Shown here one piece after another: positions 16,877-26,378 of a stretch of DNA of 64,000 nucleotides. The DNA is from Candidatus Polarisedimenticolia bacterium. GTDB taxonomy: Bacteria > Acidobacteriota > Polarisedimenticolia > Gp22-AA2 > AA152. Both the position numbers and the translations under genes were made by a program. Position 1 is the stretch's first letter. Every line of letters begins with the position of its first letter. The stretch is taken from NCBI GenBank assembly GCA_036004685.1, contig DASYRE010000036.1:124001-188000 (forward strand). The letters are read 5' to 3'. Below the pieces are notes generated by a model. It worked only from the letters and a program-made list of their open reading frames with translations, was not told where the DNA came from and made no database searches.

Positions 16877-18907
16877 ATGATGCGCACCCTGGCGACTGTT
16901 CTTGTCCTGGTTTTCGGCGCGGGCGCGGCGGCCTTCGCAAGCTCCGAGCCGCAGCACGGCGTTTACGCGGAGGACCTGAATCGCAGCGTCGATCCCTGCA
17001 GCGACTTCTTTGAATACGCCAACGGCGCCTGGCGCGCCGCGAACCCCATCCCCGCCTCCATGACCCGATGGAGCCGCCGCTGGGCTTCCGGGGAGTCGGC
17101 CAAGGAGCAGCTCCGGGGCATTCTCGATGAAGCCTCCCAGAAGAAGGGCCTGAAAAAGGGAGCCGTGGAGCAGCAGATCGCCGATTACTACGCTTCTTGC
17201 ATGGACGAGCCACGGATCGAGCAGGCCGGCATCGCCCCGATCCGCCCGCTGCTTTCCGAGATCGACGCGATGAAAGGACCGGCCGATCTGCAACGGATGA
17301 TCGGGCGGTTCCAGACGCTGCAGATTCCCGTCCCCTTCGGCGTGCGATCCGCCTCCGACAACCACGACCCGGGCCGCGTCATCGCTGACGTCTACGCCGC
17401 CGGCCTGGGGCTGCCCGACCGCGATTACTACTTCAAGCCCGAACCGCGCTTCCAGGAAGCCCGGGAGAAATACCAGGCTCACGTGGCCGCGATGTTTCAT
17501 CTCTCCGGCACCGAGGAGGCGGCGGCCCAAGCGGCGGCGCAGACGGTCTTCGAGTTCGAGAAGAAGCTGGCGGCGGCCTCGCTCGACAACGTCGCCTTGC
17601 GGGACCCCCGGGAAACCGACCACAAGATGACGTTTGTCGCCCTGGAGCACCTGGCGTCCCACTTCGATTGGAGCGGCTTCTTCCGGAGCGCGGCGCTGCC
17701 GAAATCCGACCTGAACGTCCAGGAGCCGAAGTTCGTGCAGGAGGTCGAGCGCCGCCTGACCGCTTCGCCGCTGCCGGAATGGAAGACCTACCTCAAGTGG
17801 CAGCTCCTGCACTCCGCCGCCGGCGCCCTCTCGACTCCTTTCGTGAACGAGGACTTCGCCTTCTACGGCAAGTATCTGGCCGGAGCGGGAGAGCTGAAGC
17901 CGCGCTGGAAGCGCTGCGTGGAGTCGACCGACGCCGACCTCGGCGAGGCGCTCGGGCAGAAATACGTGGAAAGGCACTTCCCTCCCGCCGCGAAGGCCCG
18001 CATGCAGGAGCTGGTCAAGAACCTCCTGCTGGCGATGCGAGAGACGATCGAGCACCTGGAGTGGATGGGGGCCGACACCAAGAAGAAGGCCCTGGAGAAG
18101 ATCTCCACCTTCAACCCGAAGATCGGCTACCCCGACAAGTGGAAGGACTACCGCAAGGTGGAGATCCGGCGCGACTCATTCTGGGCCAACACGGCCGCCG
18201 GGCGGAAGTTCAACGTGGCGGACGACTGGGCGCAGGTCGGCAAGCCCGTGGACCGCGGCCGGTGGGGCATGACGCCGCCGACCTCGAACGCCTATTACAA
18301 TCCGCTGCTGAACGAGATCGTCTTTCCCGCGGGGATCCTCCAGCCCCCGGCGTTCCGGATGGACGCCGCGGACGCGGTGAATTACGGGGCGATCGGCGTC
18401 GTCATCGGGCACGAGATCAGCCACGGATTCGACGACCAGGGGGCCCAATACGATGCCCAGGGGCGCTTGCAGAATTGGTGGACCGCGGAAGACCTGCGCG
18501 GCTTCCAGGCGCGCACCGCGTGCGTCGTCAACCAGTTCGACGGCTACTTCATCGAGCCGGAGATCCACCACAACGGGAAGCTCGTCCTCGGAGAGGCCAT
18601 CGGAGATCTCGCCGGAGCGAAGATCGCCTACCGCGCCTACCAGATCTCGCAACAGGGAAAACCGCCGGCACCGCCGGTCGACGGCCTCACGCCGGACCAG
18701 CAGTTCTTCGTCGCCTGGGGTCAGTTCCGGGGAGACGAGATCCGCCCCGAGACGCAGCGGATGATGATCCAGGGAGATCCGCACCCGATCGCGAAGTACC
18801 GGGTCATCGGGCCGCTGTCGAACCTTGCCGATTTCCAGAGAGCATTCGGCTGCGCGGCCGACGCTCCCATGGTCCGTCCGGCGGCGAGCCGCTGCGAGGT
18901 GTGGTGA
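16877..18907 (+). CDS. M13 family zinc metallopeptidase (neprilysin/PepO-like), secreted
   Basis: 676 aa with a signal peptide (MMRTLATVLVLVFGAGAAAFA). The N-terminal DLNRSVDPCSDFFEYANGAW is the family start signature. Zinc site: VIGHEISHGFDDQG gives HExxH, and GEAIGDLAGAKIAY supplies the third ligand Glu and the Asp. A substrate-side NAYYNP element and the terminal SRCEVW (CxxW-type end) are intact. It cleaves oligopeptides outside the cytoplasm. An AGAGGAG site precedes the ATG. Confidence 0.95.
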   Translation: MMRTLATVLVLVFGAGAAAFASSEPQHGVYAEDLNRSVDPCSDFFEYANGAWRAANPIPASMTRWSRRWASGESAKEQLRGILDEASQKKGLKKGAVEQQIADYYASCMDEPRIEQAGIAPIRPLLSEIDAMKGPADLQRMIGRFQTLQIPVPFGVRSASDNHDPGRVIADVYAAGLGLPDRDYYFKPEPRFQEAREKYQAHVAAMFHLSGTEEAAAQAAAQTVFEFEKKLAAASLDNVALRDPRETDHKMTFVALEHLASHFDWSGFFRSAALPKSDLNVQEPKFVQEVERRLTASPLPEWKTYLKWQLLHSAAGALSTPFVNEDFAFYGKYLAGAGELKPRWKRCVESTDADLGEALGQKYVERHFPPAAKARMQELVKNLLLAMRETIEHLEWMGADTKKKALEKISTFNPKIGYPDKWKDYRKVEIRRDSFWANTAAGRKFNVADDWAQVGKPVDRGRWGMTPPTSNAYYNPLLNEIVFPAGILQPPAFRMDAADAVNYGAIGVVIGHEISHGFDDQGAQYDAQGRLQNWWTAEDLRGFQARTACVVNQFDGYFIEPEIHHNGKLVLGEAIGDLAGAKIAYRAYQISQQGKPPAPPVDGLTPDQQFFVAWGQFRGDEIRPETQRMMIQGDPHPIAKYRVIGPLSNLADFQRAFGCAADAPMVRPAASRCEVW

Positions 18908-18937
18908 TCCGGCCGGCGCCGGGCCGGTGGCCGCTGC

Positions 18938-23448: not shown

Positions 23449-24273
23449 TCAGCGCATCAACGACCAGATAAAAACCAGCACTTCGATGAAGATCAGCAGC
23501 AGGATCGCCAGCTCGAGCTGCACGGTCCGGCGGTGGTTGAGCAGGTTCATCAGCATCGAGCTCATGTCGGTGAAGTAGACGACTTTCTCCTTGATGGCGG
23601 AGAGCCGCTCCTCCAGATCGAAGAAATCGTAGAGCTGGCTGTCGAGGCGCTCCAGCATCTCGCTTTCCCACGTCTCTGGCGGCTTGTCGAAGAGCGTGAG
23701 GTTGGCCAGTACGGACGAGCGGACCTGAAGGGCGAAACCGATGGCGCGCAGGACCTCTTTCACCGGAAGGCGCAGCCGGCCGCTGGCGTGGAGGCAATTC
23801 ACCACGGGCTCGAAGCGGCGAAGCGCCGCGGCCACCACCTGCTCGATGTGATCCAGGGCCACCGACTGGGCGACGGTGAGCGAGATGATGGTCATGCGGT
23901 CCAGAGTCAGCTCTTTGAGCCGCACCTCGTTGAAGGTGACCGCGCTCTCGCCCGCCCCGACCAGCACTTCGATCTCCTCCTCCATCTTCGTGTCGGGCGA
24001 GTCTCCCATGACCAATCCGACGTCGGCGAGGAAGTCTCTCTGAGTGCGGTCGGTGCACTTCCAGAACACGACCGAGCCGAATTTCGTCAGGACGGCATAG
24101 CTGCCGCGCACCGGCTCGGTCACCAGCGGATCGGCGGCCAGCACCGGGTAATGGGGATGGCGCGCCCGGAAGCTCTTGAGGTCGACCTGCCCTTCGAGGT
24201 AGACGGCCCGCACGCGGACGCGTTCCGCCGCCTCGGGCCGGAAGGGAAGCGTGACGTTCGGGACGATCGACAT
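23449..24273 (-). CDS. RMD1/YagE family (DUF155) protein
   Basis: 274 aa from the ATG at 24273 (GGGAGG upstream). The family core is present: GSYAVLTKFGSVVFWK, then a long helical region, and the terminal block EERLSAIKEKVVYFTDMSS with a C-terminal transmembrane helix (LAILLLIFIEVLVFIWSL). Eukaryotic relatives (RMND1) are mitochondrial membrane proteins needed for translation; the bacterial role is not settled. The extended upstream frame has no sign of coding. Confidence 0.85.
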   Translation of the reverse strand: MSIVPNVTLPFRPEAAERVRVRAVYLEGQVDLKSFRARHPHYPVLAADPLVTEPVRGSYAVLTKFGSVVFWKCTDRTQRDFLADVGLVMGDSPDTKMEEEIEVLVGAGESAVTFNEVRLKELTLDRMTIISLTVAQSVALDHIEQVVAAALRRFEPVVNCLHASGRLRLPVKEVLRAIGFALQVRSSVLANLTLFDKPPETWESEMLERLDSQLYDFFDLEERLSAIKEKVVYFTDMSSMLMNLLNHRRTVQLELAILLLIFIEVLVFIWSLMR

Positions 24274-24480: not shown

Positions 24481-25281
24481 ATGAAGCGTCGCTGGAACGT
24501 CTCCGCCTGGGCGGGATTCGGGACGGTCCTGGTCGCCTTCCTGACCTACGTCCCGGTCTTCACGCGCTTTCCGATCACGCGCGACTTCCCCTGGGCCAAT
24601 CTGCTCCTCTTTGGCGCGGGTCTGGCGATCCTGGCCCGCGGGCTGGGCCGCGCCTATCGCGAGCCGCAGCTCTATCGCGGCAGGGTTTTCGCGCCGGTCT
24701 TGATGGGTCTGGGGGTTCTCATCCTCGTCTTCTTCTGCTACGGCGTCCTCGTCGCGTCGCGGCAGCTCCCCGTCTCGTCCGGCGCGCCGCACGTCGGCTC
24801 GCCGGCGCCTGATTTCACCCTGCCCGATCAGGACGGCCGGAGCGTCTCCCTCTCAGCGCTGCTCGGCCACGAGGGTGGAGAATCGCTCCAAGGAGCCCTC
24901 CTCATCTTCTATCGCGGCTATTGGTGACCCTTGTGCAACTCCGAGTTGCGGAGTTTCGAGGAACGCCTCGGGGACTTCGATCGGCGGCGGGTCCGCCTGC
25001 TCGCCATCAGTGTCGATCCGCCGGAGGTCAATCGCCGACACCGCCAGGAGCTGGGATTCAGCTTCACCTTCTTGTCCGACCCGAACGCGGAGGCGATCCG
25101 GCGTTACGATCTCCTTCATGCGGGGGGCGGACCGGATGGAAAGGACATCTCCCGGCCCGCCGAGTTCCTGGTCGACTCGAGCGGGACGATCCGTTGGGTC
25201 AATCTCACCAGGTCGATCACCGTGCGGGCGCGCCCTGAAGAAGTCCTGAGCGCGATCGACCGCCTTCCCCCGGGCAGATGA
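24481..25281 (+). CDS. Membrane-anchored peroxiredoxin-like selenoprotein (in-frame TGA read as selenocysteine)
   Basis: 266 aa if the TGA at 24925-24927 (codon 149) is read through. Three hydrophobic segments (residues about 8-95) anchor the protein, followed by an AhpC/TSA-type redoxin domain (GSPAPDFTLPDQDG ... LLIFYRGYW-U-PLCNSELRSF). The TGA falls exactly at the peroxidatic Cys of the W-C-P-x-C motif, and Cys152 supplies the second position. The frame continues intact for 117 codons with clear homology-like content (LLAISVDPPEVN, FTFLSDPNAEAIRRY, AEFLVDSSGTIRWVN). A hairpin 16 nt after the TGA fits a bacterial SECIS. It would reduce peroxides at the membrane. A nonsense mutation or base error is the alternative. 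Stop overlaps the next gene (ATGA). Confidence 0.85.
24937..24955 (+). promoter_or_regulatory. SECIS-like stem-loop in the peroxiredoxin coding sequence
   Basis: AACTCC pairs with GGAGTT over 6 bp with the 7-nt loop GAGTTGC, whose first base is G. The loop begins 16 nt after the TGA, within the window reported for bacterial SECIS elements. A competing fold (GCAACT/AGTTGC) is possible, so the exact structure is uncertain. Confidence 0.6.
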
Positions 25282-26378
25282 TCGGGGCCACCGCCATGAA
25301 ACGGCGCCAGACGTTCCCCAGGAGGCTGTCGGTGAAAAAAAAGGTGAAAAAAAAGAAGCTCGGCGGCGGCAAGCCGCTCCCCGGTCAGATGCTCGACCTC
25401 GTCACCGGCTACTGGGTCTCCCAGCTCGTCTACGTGGCGGCCAAGCTGGAGCTTGCCGACCGCCTCGCGAAAGGCCCCAAGACCGCCGCCGATCTGGCGG
25501 CGGAGACCGGCGCGAACCCGATCGCCCTGCACCGTATCCTGCGGGCTCTCGCCGGCGTGGGGGTCTTCAAGGAGACCGCCGGCGGCCGCTTCAAGCTGAC
25601 GCCGCTCGCCGGCACGCTGAGGACCGGCGTCCCCGGCTCGATGCGCGATTTCGCGGTGATGATGGTCGAAGACTACAACTGGGAGGCCTGGCAGGACATC
25701 CTCGAAAGCGTTCGCAACGGCGAGGCGGCCTTCCCGAGGGTCCACGGGATGAAGATCTTCGAGTACTACGAGAAGCACCCCGAGAAGGGAGGCGATTTCG
25801 CCCGCGCGATGTCGAGCCTCTCGGGCACTGAGAACCCGGCCATCGCGGCGGCCTACGACTTCTCGGCGCTGCGCACTCTGGTCGACGTCGGGGGCTCCCA
25901 GGGCCACCTCCTCGCGGAAATCCTGCGCCGCAACCGCCGCCTGAGGGGAGTTCTCTTCGACCTGCCGCACGCCGTCGAGCGCGCCAAGGCGGCGCCGTAT
26001 CTCAACGCGAAAGGGCTCCACGGCCGCATCGAGTTCGTGGCGGGAGATTTCTTCCGGGGAGTGCCCGAAGGGGCCGACGCGTACATCATGAAGTACATCC
26101 TGCACGACTGGGACGACTCCCTCTGCACGAAGATCCTGAAGAGCTGCCGGGAAGCGCTGGCTCCGGGCGGCCGGGTGCTGGTCGTGGACACGGTGGTGCC
26201 GCGCGGCAACGCCCCCCACTGGGGAAAGCTCCTGGACGTCAACATGCTGGCCATGACGGGAGGGCGCGAGCGCACCGCCTCCGAATTCCAGGATCTCCTC
26301 GCCGGGGCCGGCTTCCGGTTGAAGAGGATCGTTCCAACCGCCTGCCCGCTGAGCATCGTCGAGGGCCGGGCCGCCTGA
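25278..26378 (+). CDS. S-adenosylmethionine-dependent O-methyltransferase (plant/bacterial OMT family)
   Basis: 366 aa. The N-terminal dimerisation/winged-helix part begins after a Lys-rich segment (LSVKKKVKKKKL). The Rossmann fold starts with LVDVGGSQGHLLAEIL, followed by LFDLPHAVERA, a GRIEFVAGDFF acidic strand, and DAYIMKYILHDWDD, the family motif. Relatives methylate hydroxyl groups of small aromatic or polyketide molecules; the substrate is unknown. The start overlaps the peroxiredoxin stop (ATGA); an ATG six codons later (25296) is possible. Confidence 0.87.
   Translation: MIGATAMKRRQTFPRRLSVKKKVKKKKLGGGKPLPGQMLDLVTGYWVSQLVYVAAKLELADRLAKGPKTAADLAAETGANPIALHRILRALAGVGVFKETAGGRFKLTPLAGTLRTGVPGSMRDFAVMMVEDYNWEAWQDILESVRNGEAAFPRVHGMKIFEYYEKHPEKGGDFARAMSSLSGTENPAIAAAYDFSALRTLVDVGGSQGHLLAEILRRNRRLRGVLFDLPHAVERAKAAPYLNAKGLHGRIEFVAGDFFRGVPEGADAYIMKYILHDWDDSLCTKILKSCREALAPGGRVLVVDTVVPRGNAPHWGKLLDVNMLAMTGGRERTASEFQDLLAGAGFRLKRIVPTACPLSIVEGRAA

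Follow-up and report, generated by a model that had tools for sequence, protein, structure and literature searches.

The window analysed here comprises 64,000 nucleotides of contig DASYRE010000036.1 from a Candidatus Polarisedimenticolia bacterium and contains on its plus strand a redoxin gene whose reading frame, extending from an ATG at 24481 to a terminal TGA at 25279-25281, is split by an in-frame TGA at 24925-24927 with 117 sense codons after it. The Pfam model AhpC-TSA spans the internal TGA (residues 105-239, E 2.5e-28) and scores better than the Redoxin model (PF08534), which also matches the protein (E 4e-15). The sequence itself and the Pfam match across the TGA thus confirm the frame, the coordinates and the 117 codons of redoxin given in an earlier, sequence-only reading of this DNA. 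The G+C content by codon position is alike on both sides of the TGA (0.68/0.49/0.85 vs 0.67/0.50/0.81). Ordinary ORF calling breaks the gene into two ORFs, just as had been expected of standard annotation. The locus has the following features:

24481..25281, plus strand: proposed selenoprotein gene, complete, 266 residues including Sec149, terminal TGA at 25279-25281 (from orthologues)
24481..24756, plus strand: N-terminal anchor with three predicted TM helices at about residues 9-27, 38-56 and 73-91 (from hydropathy in 17 homologues, structure model and alignment)
24781..25278, plus strand: redoxin domain of the AhpC-TSA / AhpE-PrxQ fold (from Pfam, structure model, fold and residue alignments)
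24925..24927, plus strand: in-frame TGA, read as Sec149 of a UPLC motif (from frame reading and homologue comparison)
24934..24936, plus strand: Cys152, putative second redox residue, aligned with the peroxidatic Cys of peroxiredoxins and invariant in the anchored family (from alignment)
24937..24955, plus strand: bSECIS-like hairpin, stem 24937-24943 with 24949-24955 and loop 24944-24948 (from folding and covariation)

The active-site motif reads FYRGYW-U-P-L-C-N-S-E-L. Downstream, the start ATGA of an O-methyltransferase gene (Methyltransf_2, 25278-26378) shares bases with the redoxin gene's terminal TGA, a pairing that is not kept in relatives; on the other side, a DUF155 (RMND1-like) gene at 23449-24271 on the minus strand is oriented divergently. 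There is no conserved gene neighbour: the neighbouring genes of the window never adjoin the redoxin in relatives, so that no substrate, electron donor or partner can be named from the gene context.

Homologues were collected in scans at the family, class and phylum levels, and 31 matching loci together with L025 were read in detail. Every one of the closest matches in these scans contains a TGA, and among the loci read it occupies the active-site codon in all but L129 (genome G087), a non-anchored redoxin with TGC (Cys) in a genome that has SelA, which is a possible case of Sec/Cys exchange. The anchored set consists of 20 sequences including the window protein and, with L154 from a Binataceae MAG, of 21; L106 and L119, in which the anchor is incomplete or shifted, and the divergent L125 were kept apart. 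Anchored homologues are 28-65% identical and come from several families as well as from one Deltaproteobacteria and one Binataceae MAG. The TGA is found at the same codon in 21/21 anchored sequences read and Cys in none of them (0/21); Cys occupies this column in 21 related redoxins. Arg145, Gly146, Trp148, position 149, Cys152 and Glu155 are invariant in an alignment of 18 sequences. For the codons after the TGA, a comparison of the window gene with seven near homologues revealed dN values of 0.21-0.37 and dS values of 1.03-1.55 in six pairs, with saturation in the seventh. As the substitutions there are mostly synonymous, this part of the frame is under purifying selection.

A scan of 195 genomes from the L025 phylum detected no further anchored form, its two TGA-less matches stopping short of the anchor, and plasmid records gave redoxin matches only below 80% query coverage and at about 30-35% identity. 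Non-anchored redoxins with UGA at the active site were also observed in the phylum of the window gene (L113-L115, L123, L124, L126-L128 and L130-L132); several of them have signal-like N-termini, and L113 continues into a long repeat-like C-terminal part. At L119 (G108:C292:18759-19543) the anchor and the redoxin domain lie in different frames, which is probably due to a frameshift or an assembly error.

The source genome (3.84 Mb, 100% complete) encodes the whole selenocysteine machinery for which the sequence-only reading had advised a search, namely a tRNA-Sec with anticodon TCA (75.1 bits, cut-off 47), SelA (563.9 bits), SelB (302 bits, with the C-terminal part in the same frame) and SelD (369 bits). 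The selD gene (L158, G000:C8:40973-41899) carries an in-frame TGA of its own (SSGG-U-AAK), and the selenophosphate synthetase of this organism is therefore likely itself a selenoprotein. A second UGA redoxin (L157, G000:C58, ~18341-18914) has a signal-like N-terminal segment and the TxxU peroxiredoxin motif FPKAFTGGUTSE, in which the UGA sits at the canonical peroxiredoxin position, unlike that of the window gene. The genome thus combines complete Sec machinery with at least three UGA genes (the window redoxin, selD and L157). Another redoxin match, L156, ends at an ordinary TGA stop and was rejected as a selenoprotein. In two other genomes (G035 and G036), a selD with its own UGA adjoins an anchored Sec redoxin (L144, L145) in divergent orientation.

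At the level of the phylum, we surveyed the co-occurrence with SelA in 396 genomes, scoring up to six candidates per genome, with the position of the TGA examined just at the loci read in detail. SelA is present in 252/396 genomes as background, and 67/396 have a TGA-holding redoxin match. SelA was found in 62/67 of these genomes, vs 9/17 genomes with a TGA-less redoxin match (Fisher p 4e-4); compared with the background, the enrichment has a p of 8e-9. The five of the 67 genomes without a SelA match are represented by assemblies of 75-93% completeness.

The hairpin downstream of the UGA (AACUCCG-AGUUG-CGGAGUU) has a stem of 7 bp, which begins 10 nt after the TGA, and a 5-nt loop beginning 16-17 nt after it. 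The sequence-only reading had described a bacterial SECIS with a G-first loop of 7 nt: the hairpin exists, is conserved and shows compensatory changes, but its loop has 7 nt and a leading G only when the closing G-C is not counted as paired. Taken alone, the window hairpin has a folding z of -2.8 and a synonymous-recoding p of 0.08, which is not significant; what makes the hairpin significant is that it is conserved and covaries between species. In the clade with the GAGUU-type loop (n=13), 4/7 pairs are changed on both sides (for example CCUCG/CGAGG in L122 and CGCUG/CAGCG in L127), none of the 500 shuffles reaches the observed value in any of the five measures, and the covariation signal is lost when the partner is shifted by 1-3 columns. 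The hairpin of a second clade is of another type, with a GGN loop located 22 nt behind the UGA; its covariation score was reached in 0/500 shuffles, though its count of double-change pairs lacks significance (122/500), and this type also occurs at four additional loci from the L025 phylum. The median hairpin score is 17 in Sec sequences vs 8 in Cys homologues (p 2e-8), and the combined synonymous-recoding p is 3e-16 for Sec sequences vs 0.16 for Cys homologues, values that are overstated because related sequences are over-counted. As a class, the Cys homologues are without such hairpins, although about 3/21 have one by the same test. Rfam assigned no named SECIS family to the site. We conclude that a conserved SECIS-like hairpin follows the UGA, and it is predicted to be bound by SelB.

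With the complete Sec machinery, an in-frame UGA that is conserved and replaced by Cys in other homologues, and the downstream hairpin, the locus has the hallmarks of a bacterial selenoprotein gene, and the probable selenoprotein of the sequence-only reading holds. We infer with hardly any reservation that selenocysteine is inserted at UGA 24925-24927, and assign a probability of about 0.93 to the reading that the product is a Sec-containing, membrane-anchored redoxin, a figure that covers neither of the activities discussed below. The two broken ORFs could also point to an ordinary Cys redoxin that has become a pseudogene by a nonsense mutation or a base-call error, but 20 further anchored homologues, taken from separate assemblies, and many non-anchored redoxins share the TGA, and this conservation across species, together with the selection downstream and the intact machinery, makes this explanation extremely improbable. 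Equally improbable is a real termination at the TGA, with a functional anchor protein of 148 residues and a separate downstream ORF from TTG 24931. Both ORFs do exist, but the redoxin fold would be cut at its active site, the two halves share one frame across the TGA in the homologues read, and selection acts on both sides. Even more remote is a genome-wide reassignment of TGA to Trp or another residue, for which nothing more than the open frame speaks: TGA terminates the window gene itself and another redoxin gene of the genome, tRNA-Sec and SelB are present, and redoxins sharing the FYRGxW motif have Cys at the aligned residue and never Trp.

The Sec-containing redoxin reading includes a membrane anchor. 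Three hydrophobic segments were found by hydropathy in 17/17 sequences tested, and the structure model contains helices at residues 7-22, 38-60 and 67-94, which bears out the N-terminal three-helix anchor proposed before. The loop after the second segment contains 3-6 Arg/Lys and the loop after the first one 1-2 (17 sequences). Following the positive-inside rule, hydropathy and charge make an N-in anchor with an outward-facing redoxin domain quite probable. No reliable Pfam family covers the anchor (DUF2721 in 1/18 members). The motif FPxTRDFPWxNL is conserved after helix 1. In a tree of the redoxin domain, the anchored sequences fall into two groups with modest support, and the shared FPxxRDFPWxNL motif suggests one origin of the anchor.

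The structure model of the window protein has a high-confidence fold (pLDDT 92.4), and the nearest folds are Bcp4, AhpE and PrxQ with TM values of ~0.8-0.9 of the target. The TGA had been placed at the position of the peroxidatic Cys, which has to be revised, since alignment to solved peroxiredoxins puts Sec149 on the Thr/Ser of [TS]xxC(P) and Cys152 on the peroxidatic Cys. According to the same alignment, the catalytic Arg column is occupied by Pro226, with an Arg one residue earlier, and is nearly invariant in the family. Compared with peroxiredoxins (PxxxTxxC/U), the protein shares the fold, but its W-U-P-x-C motif does not have the peroxidatic residue at the last TxxC/U position, and the aligned column lacks the catalytic Arg; the PF00578 domain with UxxC is that of a Prx-like thiol:disulfide oxidoreductase. 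Because Sec149 stands at the Thr/Ser position and Pro226 at that of the Arg, the site is closer to that of WCxxC thioredoxin-like proteins than to a peroxiredoxin site.

Judged from these positions, a thiol:disulfide oxidoreductase activity has slightly better than even odds, a peroxidase activity in which either Sec or Cys152 attacks is plausible but somewhat below them, and disulfide exchange is favoured by a small margin. The membrane-tethered U-x-x-C peroxidase proposed earlier therefore stands as to the tether and the UxxC, and the peroxidase is only one of two possible activities, as Sec149 replaces the Thr/Ser and Cys152 the peroxidatic Cys. More specifically, that proposal takes the protein as a true peroxiredoxin with a peroxidatic Sec149 and a resolving Cys152. 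The AhpE/PrxQ fold agrees with it, and Sec selenolates readily reduce peroxides; the residue alignments at positions 149, 152 and 226 and the separate TxxU peroxiredoxin of the same genome, with its UGA at the canonical place, speak against it and leave it a tentative option. As its Sec occupies the TlpA/thioredoxin-like position within a peroxiredoxin fold, the enzyme is not necessarily a peroxidase.

For the Sec-containing anchored redoxin we propose that the hairpin immediately 3' of UGA 24925-24927 directs SelB and Sec-tRNA to decode this codon as selenocysteine, giving an AhpE/PrxQ-fold domain on three N-terminal TM helices that most likely faces the periplasm. Sec149-Pro-Leu-Cys152 would be the working pair: the Sec selenolate may attack an oxidised substrate, either a protein disulfide or a hydroperoxide, Cys152 would resolve the Sec intermediate as a selenenylsulfide, and a membrane or periplasmic thiol donor would then reduce it.

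ResA/TlpA thiol-disulfide oxidoreductases, which have an anchor of one helix, are likewise membrane-tethered and outward-facing with a WCxxC-type motif, and the profile of the anchored family matches ResA structures at 1e-17, but they use Cys and belong to a different redoxin branch, in contrast to the three-helix anchor and Sec of the window protein. AhpE (1xvw), Bcp4 (3hjp) and archaeal PrxQ (2cx3) have the fold in common with it at 24-31% identity, but are soluble Cys proteins with [TS]xxC and the catalytic Arg, whereas the window protein is anchored and has UxxC and Pro. The TxxU-type Sec peroxiredoxin PrxU (NF040737), an enzyme of Eubacterium acidaminophilum cited in PMC13188914, shares the peroxiredoxin fold and an active-site Sec, but its Sec occupies the peroxidatic position, three residues further on, and the window protein reaches a score of 20 against a cut-off of 270. 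No NCBIfam model passes its cut-off; the best match is the SelL-related redox protein NF040769 (41.5 bits, cut-off 120).

Redoxin selenoproteins with UxxC are known by prediction as "Prx-like thiol:disulfide oxidoreductase" and "Redoxin family protein", and the accessible text of the papers concerned makes no mention of a membrane anchor (PMC13188914, PMC9312934, PMC1794560, PMC2398784). Going by that text, the Prx-like thiol:disulfide oxidoreductases (PF00578, UxxC/UxxU; PMC13188914, PMC1794560; cf. "Prx-like 1", PMC2398784) have an AhpC-TSA domain with Sec first in UxxC, as here, and their members are predicted (PMC13188914). Their Cys homologues outnumber the Sec forms, as in the marine set of "Prx-like 1" with 225 Sec vs 2,740 Cys forms (PMC2398784), whereas no anchored Cys form was found here. 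The Redoxin family selenoprotein (PF08534, UxxC; PMC13188914), as described there, is probably identical to "Prx-like 3" of PMC2398784 and has the same motif; compared by description, it differs in that AhpC-TSA outscores Redoxin in the window protein. An anchored selenoprotein of the UxxC redoxin type is not described in the open-access journal papers searched. The Prx-like UxxC oxidoreductase is thus a known kind of selenoprotein, and the anchored, apparently Sec-only architecture is new with respect to these papers.

In our estimation, the odds are even that these proteins make up a widespread family, so far without a name, of redoxins that face outward on a three-helix anchor and occur in the selenocysteine form only. 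If so, a large bacterial phylum would use selenium in the redox chemistry of its envelope, no Cys counterpart with this architecture would exist, and such a Sec-only family would be hard to detect for methods that rely on Cys/TGA pairs. A gene class that is almost certainly real is cut in two by standard annotation across a whole bacterial group. A TGA-holding redoxin match in 67 and SelA in 252 of the 396 genomes suggest that Sec-based redox proteins are in common use in the phylum. Cys twins exist for most selenoproteins, and a family without them would lend itself naturally to testing what selenium offers beyond sulfur.
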